Assembly (NCBI RefSeq): GCF_004362895.1
Contig: NZ_SNXI01000011.1
Span: forward strand, 1 to 64,000
Length of the DNA stretch: 64,000 bases
Direction: 5' to 3'
Source of the DNA: Idiomarina aquatica
GTDB lineage: Bacteria; Pseudomonadota; Gammaproteobacteria; Enterobacterales; Alteromonadaceae
Shown: positions 15,156-60,806 of the stretch, one piece after another
Position numbering within the stretch: the first letter of the stretch is position 1
Layout: each line of letters starts with the position of its first letter
Translations under genes and position numbers: made by a program
Notes under the pieces: generated by a model
Seen by the model: only the letters and a program-made list of their open reading frames with translations
Database searches by the model: none
What the model was told of the DNA's origin: nothing

Positions 15156-15595
15156 TAACGCTCCATATCAATATGAGGAATACCGTCTTCAAGATATTCG
15201 TCGCCGATGGGCTTAAACCCGAAGTCTTTATAAAATTGCAGTAAATAGACTTGCGCGCCAACCCGTATTGGCGCATTGCTACAGCGCTGCTCAAGATAAT
15301 CAATGGCGCGTTGCATGAGTTCGCGGCCGAGCCCTGTGCGGCGCACAGACTGTGCGGTCAACACCCGTCCGATGCGGGAGTAGCTCTGGCTATCGTTAGC
15401 TTGGTATAACCTCGCATAGGCTATCATCTGGGCATCATCAGAGCGTGCAAATAAGTGCTCGGCTTGCTCGTCTTCACCGTCTGCATCTAAATACGGACAG
15501 TTTTGTTCAACAACAAAGACGTCCTGGCGTAACTTCAGCAATTGGTATAGCTGCCGCAAAGATAGTTCGTCAAAGGTACGTAAAAACCAATTCAT
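15155..15595 (-). CDS. ElaA-like GNAT acetyltransferase
   Basis: 146 residues. N-terminal LRQLYQLLKLRQDVFVVEQNCPY is the ElaA hallmark, and the acetyl-CoA loop appears as RRTGLGRELM at about 95-104. Substrate is unknown. It overlaps dam by 4 nt on one side and rsmJ by 1 nt on the other. Confidence 0.85.
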   Translation of the reverse strand: MNWFLRTFDELSLRQLYQLLKLRQDVFVVEQNCPYLDADGEDEQAEHLFARSDDAQMIAYARLYQANDSQSYSRIGRVLTAQSVRRTGLGRELMQRAIDYLEQRCSNAPIRVGAQVYLLQFYKDFGFKPIGDEYLEDGIPHIDMER

Positions 15596-16473
15596 GTGCC
15601 CACTTTCTTAATCTGTTTAGAAATTGGAATAACCTTTCCTGCTGTGGAGGCTGTTAGGGTGCCTGAATACAATGCTAACAACTCTTTTACCGGCTTCCTG
15701 CCATCAGCCTTCTGGCTAATACTCCGGGCAACGGATAATTGGCTTATCGTTGCCGGCTCATACAGCGCTCGCGTCAACGGCGTGTCGTGATTACTTATTA
15801 GTACAGGTATTTGTCTTTTACAAGCCGCTCGCAGTGCATGCCGAGCTAACTCGCTTTGGTCACCCAGTCCAAAACCACCGGTTGCATAACTGGTAAAGTT
15901 TGATGCCTGAACCAGCGGTGCATAGGGCGGATCGCAATAAATCACATCACCTTTGCGGGCGCGGCGAAAAACATGCTCAAATGAGTGACAAATAAATTTG
16001 GCTCGCTTTGCTTTTTCAGCAAAAAACTCTAATTCGGCTTCGGGAAAATAGGGCTTACGGTAATCGCCAAATGGCACATTAAATATACCTTTGCTGTTAT
16101 AGCGGCAAAGTCCGTTATAACCATGGCGATTCATATATAAGAACAACAGCGAACGGTAATAAGGATCGGCACTGGCATTAAACTCTGCGCGCAGTGCGTA
16201 ATAAACATCGGCTTGGTTGTTACGCGCAGTAAACAGCTTTTTGGCGTCCTGAATAAAGGTTTTGGGACGGCGTTTTACAAACTGGTACAGGGTGATGAGA
16301 TCGGCATTTATGTCGTTCAGCAGATAACTTTCGTAGTCCGTATTCAAAAATACAGATCCTGCACCGACAAAGGGTTCGATGAGCTTTTTACCGTGCGGCA
16401 ACTGATTTTTTATGGGATTGATAAGAGAGTACTTACCGCCCGCCCATTTTAAAAAAGCCCTGTTCTTTTTCAT
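15592..16473 (-). CDS. dam: DNA adenine methyltransferase (GATC)
   Basis: 293 residues, slightly longer than E. coli Dam. Motif I is FLKWAGGKYSLI at the N-terminus, motif IV is DPPYAP with D181-P-P-Y184, and the target-recognition region includes NRHGYNGLCRYNSKG. It methylates adenine in GATC, controlling mismatch repair strand choice and replication timing. The location after aroK-aroB-damX is the conserved one. The Shine-Dalgarno AAAGG, 7 nt before the ATG, lies inside the 3' arm of a perfect hairpin (see that feature), which suggests low or damX-coupled translation. Confidence 0.95.
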   Translation of the reverse strand: MKKNRAFLKWAGGKYSLINPIKNQLPHGKKLIEPFVGAGSVFLNTDYESYLLNDINADLITLYQFVKRRPKTFIQDAKKLFTARNNQADVYYALRAEFNASADPYYRSLLFLYMNRHGYNGLCRYNSKGIFNVPFGDYRKPYFPEAELEFFAEKAKRAKFICHSFEHVFRRARKGDVIYCDPPYAPLVQASNFTSYATGGFGLGDQSELARHALRAACKRQIPVLISNHDTPLTRALYEPATISQLSVARSISQKADGRKPVKELLALYSGTLTASTAGKVIPISKQIKKVGT

Positions 16474-16476
16474 TTG

Positions 16477-16520
16477 CCGGCCTTTGGTGAATCTTAACGC
16501 TAGTGTACCCCAAAGGCCGG
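16477..16520 (-). promoter_or_regulatory. Inverted repeat hiding the dam ribosome-binding site
   Basis: On the minus strand CCGGCCTTTGG (16520-16510) and CCAAAGGCCGG (16487-16477) pair perfectly over 11 bp around a 22-nt loop. The 3' arm contains the dam AAAGG and ends three bases before the dam ATG. The 5' arm starts about 10 nt after the damX stop. No T-run follows, so it is not an intrinsic terminator. A ribosome finishing damX would be expected to disturb the 5' arm; this coupling is inference. Confidence 0.75.
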
Positions 16521-16530
16521 GTGATGAAAA

Positions 16531-18000
16531 TTACTGTTGCACTGGTGCTGCAATTTCCGTTTGCATAGCGGCAAAGGATTTGGCCCAGGGCTCCATCTGT
16601 TGAACGGCTTGTGGCAGCTCAGAGGTGGCATCGCGTGCTTGTTGCAGCGATGCATAATTTCCGTAAATAATGACGTAACGACCATCTTCGCGTTGATACA
16701 CCGAGGTACTCTCGGTCAGGTCGTAGTCATTGCGGAACTCTGTTAATAACCGCTCCGTTGTGATGATGGCAATTTGCAATGCAAAATGTTGCGGGTCGGC
16801 TGCCATAACTTGATCTGTTTGTAGTGCTCGCTGAGGGGGAGCGGCAGCCGGTTCAACTGTTTCGGCTTCGGCTAGCTTGGGCTCTTTGATCAGCCCAAGC
16901 TCAAGTTCACGCGGGTCATTTTCAGCAGCAGCAACCCGGTTAAGATCATCAAGTGCTTCCCGGTAAGAGATAGCAAGATCTTCGGGCATTAGCGCTAATG
17001 ACTGCTCAGCCAACGGCTCGAAACTAGGGAGCTCAACTGGTGCTTGCGGAGCCTCGGCTTTAACTGGCTCGGGAGCTGATTCAGGCGATTCCGCTGTTGC
17101 AGGGACTGACTGCGTCTGGCTAAACCAGTCAGTCAATTGTTCTTTATTAATGAACCCGACAACGGCCAGACTGATTAACATGGCTACGGCAATTATGTAG
17201 CCAAGTTTTATTCCGCTGCCTTTATTTTGCTCATGCGTTTGGCTTAACTTGACGTGGTCATCGTCTGGTTCGTCAATAGCAGAGTCTGCCGGTGCAGTAT
17301 CTTCTTTGTAGCGTTGGGCTTGGGTTGCCAGCGCCAGTTGCAATCGTTGCTGGATTTCACCCGGATAACCGTTAATGGTGCTCAGGAACTGATGAATACG
17401 ATCAAAATTCCATAGCCGCTGAAGTCTTTCTGGCAGCAAGGCCTGGACAAACTGCACCTGCTCATCTTTATTCAGCGGTTGTACCTCAACCATAACCGGG
17501 CCTTGTAAACGCAGGTGAGGTGCAGGCTTTTGTTGATACGCCCAACGGCTGTCGGCAGCGATAATAATACTGACTTTTTGACCGACTGCGGACAGTTGGT
17601 TAATGGCAGCAACGCATTCGGCTAAAAAGCTCTCGCTGAGTTGTTCGCCGTTATCGATCACAATGACGGCGTGTTTTAACGGTGTTTGGCGTTGGATTTG
17701 TCGACTCAGCGTTTCGTCACTTAAGCTGATAGTGCCAAATAATTGGTTTAATATTTGCGCGCGGAGACGGTCGGGTGTAGAGCGTTCGTTGACAGTAATA
17801 AACGCGCACTCAGCATAGTTAGATGCTTGTTCCAGGAACAGTTCCGCTATGGTTGTCTTACCCGAACCATCACTGCCATGCAGCATAATCACCGTGTCAG
17901 TTTGCTGACAGTGATGATGTATCTGGTCAATAATCTGCTGTTGAGATGTTTTAACTTTTACCGGAGCGGCAACAATCTGTTGTTGAGCCAAAGCTTGCAT
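16531..18000 (-). CDS. damX: DamX: AAA-ATPase plus SPOR-domain division protein
   Basis: 489 residues. Order: N-terminal ATPase with Walker A GSDGSGKT around residue 46 and Walker B-like AVIVIDNGE, a TM helix at about 262-282 (IIAVAMLISLAVVGFI), a Pro/Ala/Glu-rich linker, and a C-terminal SPOR domain from about residue 400 (FALQIAIITTE to the end). SPOR domains bind denuded glycan strands at the division septum. The start has CAGGAAAA upstream. It lies between aroB and dam as in enterobacteria and vibrios. Confidence 0.9.
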   Translation of the reverse strand: MQALAQQQIVAAPVKVKTSQQQIIDQIHHHCQQTDTVIMLHGSDGSGKTTIAELFLEQASNYAECAFITVNERSTPDRLRAQILNQLFGTISLSDETLSRQIQRQTPLKHAVIVIDNGEQLSESFLAECVAAINQLSAVGQKVSIIIAADSRWAYQQKPAPHLRLQGPVMVEVQPLNKDEQVQFVQALLPERLQRLWNFDRIHQFLSTINGYPGEIQQRLQLALATQAQRYKEDTAPADSAIDEPDDDHVKLSQTHEQNKGSGIKLGYIIAVAMLISLAVVGFINKEQLTDWFSQTQSVPATAESPESAPEPVKAEAPQAPVELPSFEPLAEQSLALMPEDLAISYREALDDLNRVAAAENDPRELELGLIKEPKLAEAETVEPAAAPPQRALQTDQVMAADPQHFALQIAIITTERLLTEFRNDYDLTESTSVYQREDGRYVIIYGNYASLQQARDATSELPQAVQQMEPWAKSFAAMQTEIAAPVQQ

Positions 18001-18022: not shown

Positions 18023-19093
18023 TTAGCAACATTCAGTGATCACAGCAGCTATCGTTTCGTGTTCGATGTTACTGACTACCTCAGCGGAACCAATCGCTGT
18101 TGGCAGGACAAAGTGCAGTCTTCCGTCTTTAACTTTTTTGTCACGCTGCATATAGCTTAACCAGTCTTGCCAGGGCATCTGTGGCGCTTTTATTGGCAAG
18201 CCCAGCTGGTTGAGCAGGTCGGCTACGCGACGGAAATCTGACGACGATAGCTTTTGTGTCACTTCCGACAGTTTAGATGCAATAACAGTGCCAGCTGCAA
18301 CAGCTTCGCCATGAGTCCATTCGCCATAGTGAGTTGCCGCCTCTATTGCGTGACCAAAGGTATGACCCAGGTTCAGCAGCGCTCTTATGCCAGATTCGCG
18401 TTCATCGGCAGCCACAACTTCCGCTTTTATGGCGCAGGAACGCTCGATTGCGTAGGTTAATGCAGCGGTGTCCCGGTTGCGCAACTCAGCTACATGGTCT
18501 TCCAGCCAATGAAAGAACTCCGCGTCGTAGATGACGCCGTACTTGACCACCTCGGCCAAGCCGCTGCGATAATTTCGTGCGCTGAGGGTTTGTAAGCAGT
18601 CAGTGTCAATGAGCACTGCCAGCGGTTGGTAAAAGGCGCCAATAAGATTTTTACCCAGCGGATGATTGATGGCCGTTTTACCGCCAACGGAAGAGTCGAC
18701 CTGTGCTAACAGGGTGGTTGGTATTTGATAAAAATCCACCCCGCGCTGATAGGTTGATGCAACAAAGCCAGCTAAGTCACCGACAACCCCTCCCCCAAGG
18801 GCAATGATCGCACAATCGCGATTAAAGCCTGCACTGATTAACTGTTGCATGATGTCGGCGTAGGTTGTGAGGCTTTTGTACTCTTCCCCATCCTGCATGT
18901 TAAACACTTCGACATGATGCGAATGCAACACGCTCAAAAGAGGCTGCAAATAGTGTTCTGCGACCGTGGGGTTGGTGACGATAAGTATTTGGCGCGGGCT
19001 GCCGGGAAAAAGGTTTGCTGCTGATCTCAGCGCCTTCGGGCTAATATCAATTGGGTAGCTGCGCTCTGCGAGCTTGACGGTTACTTTTGCCAT
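18023..19093 (-). CDS. aroB: 3-dehydroquinate synthase
   Basis: 356 residues. It converts DAHP to 3-dehydroquinate, the second step of the shikimate pathway, using NAD and a divalent metal. Visible: ALGGGVVGDLAGF, QIPTTLLAQVDSSVGGKTAINH, and the metal ligands in NLGHTFGHAIE. The start is an ATG with GGAG upstream. It is 21 nt after aroK and 22 nt before damX, so one transcript is likely. Confidence 0.96.
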   Translation of the reverse strand: MAKVTVKLAERSYPIDISPKALRSAANLFPGSPRQILIVTNPTVAEHYLQPLLSVLHSHHVEVFNMQDGEEYKSLTTYADIMQQLISAGFNRDCAIIALGGGVVGDLAGFVASTYQRGVDFYQIPTTLLAQVDSSVGGKTAINHPLGKNLIGAFYQPLAVLIDTDCLQTLSARNYRSGLAEVVKYGVIYDAEFFHWLEDHVAELRNRDTAALTYAIERSCAIKAEVVAADERESGIRALLNLGHTFGHAIEAATHYGEWTHGEAVAAGTVIASKLSEVTQKLSSSDFRRVADLLNQLGLPIKAPQMPWQDWLSYMQRDKKVKDGRLHFVLPTAIGSAEVVSNIEHETIAAVITECC

Positions 19094-40952: not shown

Positions 40953-42135
40953 GCCATAACGTTTTTAGCGGGTTAACGCCGAATTGATAGGTCAATTCGG
41001 CGGGGTTTTGTATATCCCACAATGCCAGATGTGCTTTCATTCCAGCCTTTATTTGACCGTATTCTTTTTCAATGCCAAGCGCTTTTGCAGCATTTACGGT
41101 AACACCGCGCAAACACTCCTCCGGCGTTAACCGAAATAACGTTGCACCCATTTGCAACATCAGGGGTAAGTTGTGAATAGGCGAAGATCCCGGATTGGCA
41201 TCGGTAGCCAGCGCAATCGGCACTCCGTATTGCCGCAGTAGCTTGATAGGCGGCACAGTGTCATCACGCAGAAAGTAAAATGCACCAGGCAGAAGTACCG
41301 CAACTGTGCCGTTTTCAGCCATCGCTTTTACGCCGTTCTCGTCCAGTTGCTCCAGGTGATCAGCGGATAATGCGTGGTAACGAGCTGCTAAGGCAGCACC
41401 GTTTTGATTGGTGATCTGCTCGGCATGAAGTTTGATGGGTAATTCATGGGCTTTTGCTGCTTTAAAGACACGTTCAGTCTGCTCAAGACTAAAACCGATA
41501 CGTTCGCAGAAAGCATCAACCGCATCGATTAATCCCTCAGCAGCAAGTGTCGGTAAAATCTCATTAATTATTAATTCGATATAGCCATCGGCATTGTTTT
41601 TATATTCCGGAGGCAGGGCATGCGCCGCAAGCAGCGTAGTTTTGATGTTAATGGGTAATTGCTCGCCCAAAGCGCGTGCTACTTGTAATTGTTTGCGTTC
41701 GTTTTGCAGATCCAAACCGTAGCCGGACTTAACTTCAATGGTGCCGACGCCTTGTTGCATTAATGCAGATGCACGTTTGCTGGCCAAACGCAGTAACTCA
41801 TCAAAATCGGCAGCACGAGTAGCCTGGACCGTACTGGCTATCCCCCCGCCCTGTTCAGCGATTTCAGCGTAGCTTTTACCATGTAATCTTTGTGCGAATT
41901 CGTCAGCGCGAGAACCAGCCCAAACTAAGTGGGTATGGCAGTCAATTAGTGCCGGCGTCAGGCACATGCCCTGGCCGTCGATAACTGTTGCCGCTGGCGT
42001 GGCTGGTGCTTCGACAGCAGGCCCCGACCAATAAATTGATTCACCGTCAATAATCACGACCCCGTCTTCGATAATACCGTAATCGTCAGAGTTGTCGGAT
42101 AGCGTTGCTAAAACGATGTTTTGTATACGTTGCAT
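40915..42135 (-). CDS. hutI: Imidazolonepropionase
   Basis: 406 residues, amidohydrolase family. Metal ligands are in [10 protein letters not shown], then KLHAEQITN and [10 protein letters not shown]. It opens the ring of imidazolone propionate to N-formimidoyl-glutamate. It is divergent from hutC with the HutC-type operator between them. Confidence 0.94.
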
Positions 42136-52453: not shown

Positions 52454-52456
52454 AAA

Positions 52457-52484
52457 AATACCCGCTCAATGGCGGGTATTTTTA
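52457..52484. terminator. Bidirectional intrinsic terminator (trhA/typA)
   Basis: AATACCCGC and GCGGGTATT (52457-52480) make a 9-bp stem with a 6-nt loop, with T-runs on both sides, between convergent trhA and typA. Confidence 0.85.
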
Positions 52485-59454: not shown

Positions 59455-60806
59455 TCTCCAACAGTAGTCGCCGCAAAAGTCGTTGGTACCAGTCGCTGAC
59501 ATTGCGACTGCTGTTATTGTTTTGGGCATTATTATTTGTTACCGCAAGCAGTGGCTACTTTCTCGCTGTGTGGAATCGAGCAACGCCCGAACCACAGCCT
59601 GTGGCCGAGCCGATAAAACGAACGATTGCTCCGCTTTTACAAGACCCTGTTACCTTTCTGAGTTTAGAACCTGGCCGGTTAATTGCCGGTAATTATCGTG
59701 TTGCTGCACGCGTATCGGCCGCCGGGCAGCAGAAATTAATGCTGGATGAATACCTTGGTGAGCAACATCGGCGTACGCTGTTGCGATTTCTGAATTATGA
59801 GCAAACGATGCAGATGCCGTTAGCTGACCGGTTGTTGATTGGCCCATTCGAGTTAAATGGTAATAAAGTACTGGTAACGCGGCCACTGCAGGCTGCTGAA
59901 TGGCAAGATCAGGCTCAAGCCGAACGAGAGCTGACACAAGCCCGAACATGGGCCATCGTGTCCGGTAGTTTTGTTATCGCTATTCTGTTGGGGGTATGGC
60001 TGATACGCCCAATTCGCCGGCTAAGTTCTGCAACCCGCGAAATAGCAGCAGGTAGCGCTGAACCTAACCTTGCTAAGTTGCCAAATCGGCGCGACGAAAT
60101 TGGTGACTTAGCAAGGTCTCTTGCACAAACCGCGCGTGATCTAGCGGTCTCACGTGACGCACAACGACGGTTGCTCAGCGATGTTTCGCATGAGTTACGT
60201 TCGCCAATGGCACGTATGCAAGTAGCACTGGATCTAACCGATGCCAGCGAAGATGATGCGCATATTCAGCAGTTACGCAGAGATACCGAGCGACTTAATC
60301 TAATTATTGAACGAATTCTGTCACTTTCTAAATTAGAAAACGGATTGGTGAACCTGAATAAAGAAGCAGTTGATACGGGTCAACTTGTTGCGCGTTTGAT
60401 TGATGATATTCAATATGCTGACGCGGCTTTAGGACAACGCTTAGAGCAACAGCATGCGCAGTGGCCGGAGCTCCAATCTGACGAAGAGCTGTTACGCATG
60501 ATAATCGAAAATATCGTTCGCAACGCGCTTCATTATACCGATGGTACTGTCGAACTCGGCTATAGCCTGAGTGATAATCAACACCGAATTAGCATTCGTG
60601 ACCACGGGCCTGGTGTCGACGACGACTTATTAGCGAAATTGTTTGAGCCGTTTTATCGTGGTGACCCTTCACGAAAACATAAAGCAGGGGTGGGCTTGGG
60701 ATTGGCGCTGAGTCAGCGCGCTGCCGTGGTGTTGGGCGGCACCTTATCAGCTTCTAATCACCCTGATGGGGGGCTGGAAGTTGTGTTAACATTGCCTCAA
60801 GATTAA
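59451..60806 (+). CDS. cpxA: CpxA sensor histidine kinase
   Basis: 451 residues. TM1 (about 15-36), periplasmic sensor about 37-165, TM2 (about 170-187), HAMP, H247 in SDVSHELRSPMARMQ, and HATPase with IENIVRNALHYT and GVGLGLAL. Senses misfolded envelope proteins; phosphatase when CpxP is bound. No cpxP gene is divergent here. Confidence 0.9.
   Translation: MISNSSRRKSRWYQSLTLRLLLLFWALLFVTASSGYFLAVWNRATPEPQPVAEPIKRTIAPLLQDPVTFLSLEPGRLIAGNYRVAARVSAAGQQKLMLDEYLGEQHRRTLLRFLNYEQTMQMPLADRLLIGPFELNGNKVLVTRPLQAAEWQDQAQAERELTQARTWAIVSGSFVIAILLGVWLIRPIRRLSSATREIAAGSAEPNLAKLPNRRDEIGDLARSLAQTARDLAVSRDAQRRLLSDVSHELRSPMARMQVALDLTDASEDDAHIQQLRRDTERLNLIIERILSLSKLENGLVNLNKEAVDTGQLVARLIDDIQYADAALGQRLEQQHAQWPELQSDEELLRMIIENIVRNALHYTDGTVELGYSLSDNQHRISIRDHGPGVDDDLLAKLFEPFYRGDPSRKHKAGVGLGLALSQRAAVVLGGTLSASNHPDGGLEVVLTLPQD

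Follow-up and report, generated by a model that had tools for sequence, protein, structure and literature searches.

A promoter-like site within a hairpin predicted to hide the dam ribosome-binding site in Idiomarina, and its possible role in insulating dam from read-through transcription

Mismatch repair and replication timing are both sensitive to the level of Dam. In IS10 and IS50, the transposase leaders fold in transcripts that enter from outside the element, which shields a dosage-critical gene from external transcription; the dam gene considered here would be protected in a like manner, although IS10 and IS50 are mobile elements and carry other sequences. A closer parallel is found in phage T4, in gene e (lysozyme) and I-TevI: according to excerpts of two papers, RNA initiated upstream hides the ribosome-binding site in a hairpin, and gene-adjacent late promoters start inside that hairpin and omit its 5' arm (PMC3014915, PMC2988022). 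The T4 genes use two promoters active at different times and phage sigma factors, and there the effect was measured. Concerning dam itself, the E. coli operon (aroK-aroB-damX-dam) has the same gene order as the locus described below and several dam promoters, one of which is reported within damX in an excerpt of PMC4981707; the damX-dam gap of E. coli K-12 is 106 nt long, contains other repeats and has no TACA[ACT]T that could be seen by eye. A ribosome-binding-site hairpin for dam appears in none of the literature matches listed, including PMC4921776, PMC5585154 and PMC4981707, as far as their excerpts go, and the excerpt of PMC8450116 has no bearing on read-through.

We analyzed a 64,000-nt stretch of Idiomarina DNA (hereafter the window, meaning this stretch at its full length) and compared it with 18 further Idiomarina genomes. 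On paper, the gap between damX and dam in this window would work like the T4 gene e leader, with predicted pairing of the Shine-Dalgarno sequence (SD) and start codon in a long dam RNA and a putative short RNA without the 5' arm; unlike the T4 genes, dam is a chromosomal housekeeping gene with a vegetative-type promoter-like site, and its arrangement is a prediction from sequence. The features are collected in Table 1. Using profile searches, the dam product matched TIGR00571 with 301 bits (cut-off 115), and the closest Dam in a named record, from Idiomarina aquatica, is 90% identical to it. The product of the upstream gene, with its AAA_22 and SPOR domains, matched the DamX model weakly (28 bits, below the cut-off of 256). 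On the other side, dam shares its last 4 nt (15592-15595) with the start of a GNAT acetyltransferase gene, the two likely forming a translationally coupled pair, and an RsmJ-like gene follows. In four Pseudidiomarina/Aliidiomarina loci (L032, L033, L039 and L041), the ORF immediately 5' of dam is aroB (PF01761, PF24621) and not damX; dam overlaps or almost abuts it in L032 and L033.

Table 1. Coordinates in the window of the genes and of the hairpin and promoter-like features between them
Feature	Position	Strand	Remarks
dam, DNA adenine methyltransferase	15592..16473	-	TIGR00571, PF02086
damX-like gene (AAA_22 + SPOR)	16531..18000	-	stop codon TAA 16531-16533; PRK10905 E 1e-6
aroB	18023-19093		damX/dam neighbourhood
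Hairpin 5' arm, CCGGCCTTTGG	16510..16520	-	within the 17-nt promoter spacer (16508-16524)
Hairpin loop, 22 nt	16488..16509	-	sequence and fold
Hairpin 3' arm, CCAAAGGCCGG, holding SD-like AAAGG (16481-16485)	16477..16487	-	sequence and fold
Outer helix 3' side, AUGAAAA, including the dam start codon	16467..16473	-	101-nt fold
-35-like TTTTCA	16525..16530	-	4/6 to TTGACA; present in 17/17 core Idiomarina
-10-like TACACT, inside the hairpin loop	16502..16507	-	4/6 to consensus; TACAAT in 10/17 core species
Putative transcription start, ~16495, leader ~22 nt	16493..16497	-	inferred from -10 spacing

A sequence-only reading of the window had described a perfect 11-bp hairpin 3' of the damX stop; the sequence confirms it, and the distances given were right. 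On the minus strand, the damX TAA (16533-16531) is followed by 10 nt, CCGGCCTTTGG, 22 nt, CCAAAGGCCGG, CAA and the dam ATG (16473-16471), the whole gap being 57 nt with 11 perfect base pairs between the arms. Folding 60 nt yielded -20.9 kcal/mol (z -3.5, with 0/200 shuffles as good) and folding 101 nt yielded -28.2 kcal/mol (z -2.4, 2/200 shuffles as good). The 101-nt fold contains an outer 7-bp helix, UUUUCAU/AUGAAAA, which adds the dam start codon to the pairing and whose 5' side (TTTTCAT, 16524-16530) overlaps the -35-like TTTTCA. In RNA reading through from damX, the hairpin would thus bury both the dam SD and the start codon. That the hairpin is not a terminator, as had been argued, also holds: a T-run is absent after it on either strand, and the site is unlisted in the terminator scan. 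Nor is it a mobile or dispersed repeat, since the next match of the 86-nt element in its own genome has an E-value of 0.22 (0.005 for its own reverse strand), and an Rfam search of positions 16000-17000 returned two sub-threshold matches and none above the gathering score.

We assessed how often such a repeat would arise by chance. Searching for arms of at least 11 nt and loops of at most 30 nt, the window contains four perfect inverted repeats, the dam one included, against a mean of 0.35 in 20 Markov sequences of 64 kb, so that some such repeats are expected by chance over 2.9 Mb. The other three, with arms of 11-12 nt, lie at 40977-41002, 52454-52483 and 60067-60117. A chance repeat of this size is not expected at one given 57-nt place: a perfect 11-bp repeat appeared in 1/3000 mononucleotide shuffles of the gap, the observed occlusion cost of the ribosome-binding site was matched in 1/1000 sequences in which just the upstream portion of the gap had been shuffled, and in its own genome the 11+11 repeat, allowing 15-30 nt between the arms, is unique.

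To open positions -14 to +3 around the dam start in read-through RNA, a predicted 17.0 kcal/mol is needed, the highest value among 54 mechanically picked window ORFs of at least 120 aa (next 11.1, median 5.3 kcal/mol), whereas RNA begun at the promoter-like site in the gap needs 5.4 kcal/mol. When the modelled RNA extends 24, 60 or 120 nt into dam, the cost is 17.0, 15.0 and 16.7 kcal/mol for a 5' end at 16560 and 5.4, 7.7 and 9.2 kcal/mol for a 5' end at 16496, the contrast thus persisting with more dam sequence, albeit smaller. At 37 C the SD is modelled as unpaired in 0.1% of long RNA vs 9% of short RNA, which makes the short leader freer, not open. The predicted folds and opening costs thereby bear out the earlier claim that the dam ribosome-binding site is sequestered, for damX read-through RNA, and among the functions proposed for the hairpin, computation favours a brake on dam where such RNA is concerned. 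An RNA thermometer, also proposed, is rejected, the SD of the long RNA staying below 1% unpaired in the model (0.01% to 0.6% from 10 to 60 C).

The same 60 nt hold a promoter-like site, which the sequence-only reading missed. Across the 19 Idiomarina gaps, sequence is most constant not in the hairpin but in two promoter-like hexamers, TTTTCA followed by TACAMT, with a spacer of 17 nt in all 17 core species (16 in G008); in the two deeper species, G016 and G017, the -35 is weak or missing. The pattern TACA[ACT]T, which was picked after the sequences had been viewed and is counted over related, non-independent species, occurs at most 75 nt 5' of dam in 19/19 Idiomarina (shuffle expectation 1.0; 0.5 in coding windows of the same loci), 39/39 Vibrionaceae loci (1.5 and 1.4), 18/19 Colwellia-like loci (1.3 and 1.2) and 7/14 other Idiomarinaceae-like loci (0.9 and 0.8), the groups being our own assignment from record names and match rank. 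These counts omit L021, a second weak match that is not dam, and L022-L029, eight records matching eight of the compared genomes. The seven other Idiomarinaceae-like loci without the pattern have a gap of at most 9 nt or overlapping genes. A consensus promoter scan, which found 3 sites vs 3.2 expected, did not list the gap site (8/12 matches, threshold 9/12). Given the post hoc pattern, the kinship of the species, the weak -35 and the miss in the scan, promoter activity is something we infer from these counts; in our judgement the gap very probably contains a promoter for dam. From a by-eye reading of the aligned rows, the loop carries a GATC near the putative dam transcription start in 7/17 core Idiomarina (G001, G003, G007, G008, G009, G014 and G018), so that the dam promoter region could be a target of Dam methylation there; the window loop has none.

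We propose that in the gap a dam promoter is embedded in a hairpin over the ribosome-binding site. Polymerase at the gap promoter would start near 16495 and, because the -10 and the likely start lie in the loop, the resulting RNA would lack the 5' arm; with such a leader, dam would start at ordinary cost. Any damX read-through RNA that reaches dam would carry both arms, fold, hide AAAGG and the start codon and be poorly translated. Messages from the gap promoter should then largely escape the hairpin and damX read-through messages should be nearly silent, with the Dam level following its own promoter and insulated from transcription of the upstream genes. That the arrangement insulates dam from read-through and is selected for doing so is the interpretation we tentatively prefer, at slightly less than an even chance.

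Occlusion was then compared among relatives. Opening the dam start is predicted to cost 9.9-27.8 kcal/mol in long RNA vs 3.5-7.4 in short RNA in 13/17 core Idiomarina. The other four (G004, G005, G012 and G013), a single clade in the Dam tree, have lost most of the 5' arm and need 4.8-8.7 kcal/mol in long RNA; the deeper G016 and G017, without the hairpin, need 8.8 and 11.8 kcal/mol. In G002 (L017), the stem runs almost continuously from TTTTCAT through the start codon and is the strongest of the genus, with an MFE of -39.0 and an opening cost of 27.3-27.8 kcal/mol. Outside the genus, 37/39 Vibrionaceae loci lie at 5.7 kcal/mol or below (the other two at 9.9 and 13.2), while 5/19 Colwellia-like loci and 1/14 other Idiomarinaceae-like loci (11.2) reach at least 9.9. 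Nine loci outside the core reach this value, G017 included, and 8/9 have lower short-RNA values of 2.7-6.0 kcal/mol, L047 showing no such contrast (short value 9.5). Six loci outside Idiomarinaceae (L044, L045, L046, L079, L084 and L099) have 9.9-13.2 kcal/mol for read-through vs 2.7-4.9 for gap-promoter RNA.

We counted changes per site on a 17-species Dam tree, leaving out G016 and G017. The -35 has 0.0 (0 changes over 7 columns) and the -10 0.17, the 5' arm 0.73 and the 3' arm 0.55, against 1.94 in the rest of the loop, 3.0 in the three positions preceding the 5' arm and 2.0 in the three preceding the ATG; dam itself has 0.45 at codon positions 1 and 2 and 4.35 at fourfold sites (0/68 unchanged). 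The arms change far more slowly than synonymous sites and are therefore constrained. Between the window and G018, the arms are identical at 11/11 (5') and 10/11 positions, the rest of the loop at 7/16 and fourfold sites at 32%. Conservation of the arms does not show pairing itself to be the reason for the constraint. Compensatory changes, which the sequence-only reading had proposed as a check, were looked for in the aligned Idiomarina gaps, and no pair had both sides changed; pairing does not exceed that of dealt-letter shuffles (84.9% observed vs 85.2%, with 390/500 reaching the observed value). Sliding the partner by 1-3 columns reduced pairing to 36-57%, a drop expected because the structure was read from one of the aligned rows. 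Using all 19 rows, RNAalifold did not return the hairpin and gave a different consensus fold, and in 10/17 core species the place of AAAGG holds AACGG, a poor SD, again by eye.

The absence of compensatory change speaks for a plain dam promoter with a conserved spacer and leader, the hairpin being an unselected by-product of complementarity between the two, which may still make read-through RNA less well translated. The distribution of the -10-like site reaches well past that of the hairpin, the four species without pairing retain AATTTTCAT and CTTT..GG 5' of the -10, and G016, which has no hairpin, carries CTTTGGGTTACAAT; moreover, template switching can perfect imperfect palindromes without selection. 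Against it, promoter spacers seldom show conservation of each base, yet the 5' arm is fully conserved in the G018 comparison where fourfold sites are not; the G002 changes lengthen the stem; and dam occlusion exceeds that of every other ORF in the set of 54. We consider this explanation possible but less probable than insulation. Conservation of the arms as sequence and not as covarying pairs would also suit a DNA operator, as would their placement as an inverted repeat on either side of the -10 and start; a protein repressing the dam promoter would then bind CCGGCCTTTGG in the spacer and its inverted copy past the start. The half-site occurs at three exact places in its own genome, two of which are the hairpin arms and the third of which is within a 400-aa ORF, and at 47 places with at most one mismatch vs 67 for a reversed control, and is therefore no recurring motif; we consider an operator unlikely.

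The extent of the stem bears on whether a double-strand RNase cuts it, separating the damX and dam messages and freeing the dam start. The stem is long in some species, near-continuous in G002 and followed by no T-run, whereas in the window it comprises 11 bp and 7 bp with an internal loop, usual RNase III substrates being longer, and nothing examined points to a cut; we regard processing as improbable, a step below the operator. Lower still is the probability of the coupling put forward by the sequence-only reading, in which a ribosome that has finished damX would melt the hairpin, dam being translated only together with damX. The 5' arm in the window does start 10 nt past the stop, and covering 15 nt would lower the modelled cost to 6.1 kcal/mol, the hairpin opening only from at least 15 nt. 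A stopped ribosome covers about 9-10 nt past the stop codon, and covering 0, 6, 9 or 12 nt leaves 19.1, 16.8, 18.0 and 14.5 kcal/mol. The relatives disagree as well: the distance from the stop to dam is 57 nt in three genomes with the hairpin (that of the window, G003 and G011) and in the four core species without it, and 68-81 nt in the other 10/13 hairpin species, where the stop is 11-24 nt farther upstream. Stop position and hairpin thus do not go together, and we judge the coupling very unlikely.

Returning to insulation by the hairpin-embedded promoter, the wider claim that core Idiomarina insulate Dam dosage from the aroB-damX operon by a promoter in the loop of a read-through-silencing hairpin, a phage-type switch (long transcript off, short transcript on) put to use for a housekeeping methyltransferase of the chromosome, is one we hold as a possibility only, with less confidence than insulation in itself. 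Recruitment may have happened more than once, as a like contrast, with different sequences, is seen at scattered Colwellia-like and Vibrionaceae loci. Should the promoter alone prove real, several families would still have a dam promoter located in the gap, in contrast to E. coli K-12. If the mechanism is right, for which we have so far drawn on phage papers only, it would explain how a dosage-sensitive gene can answer to its own promoter alone although it sits among the other genes of an operon.
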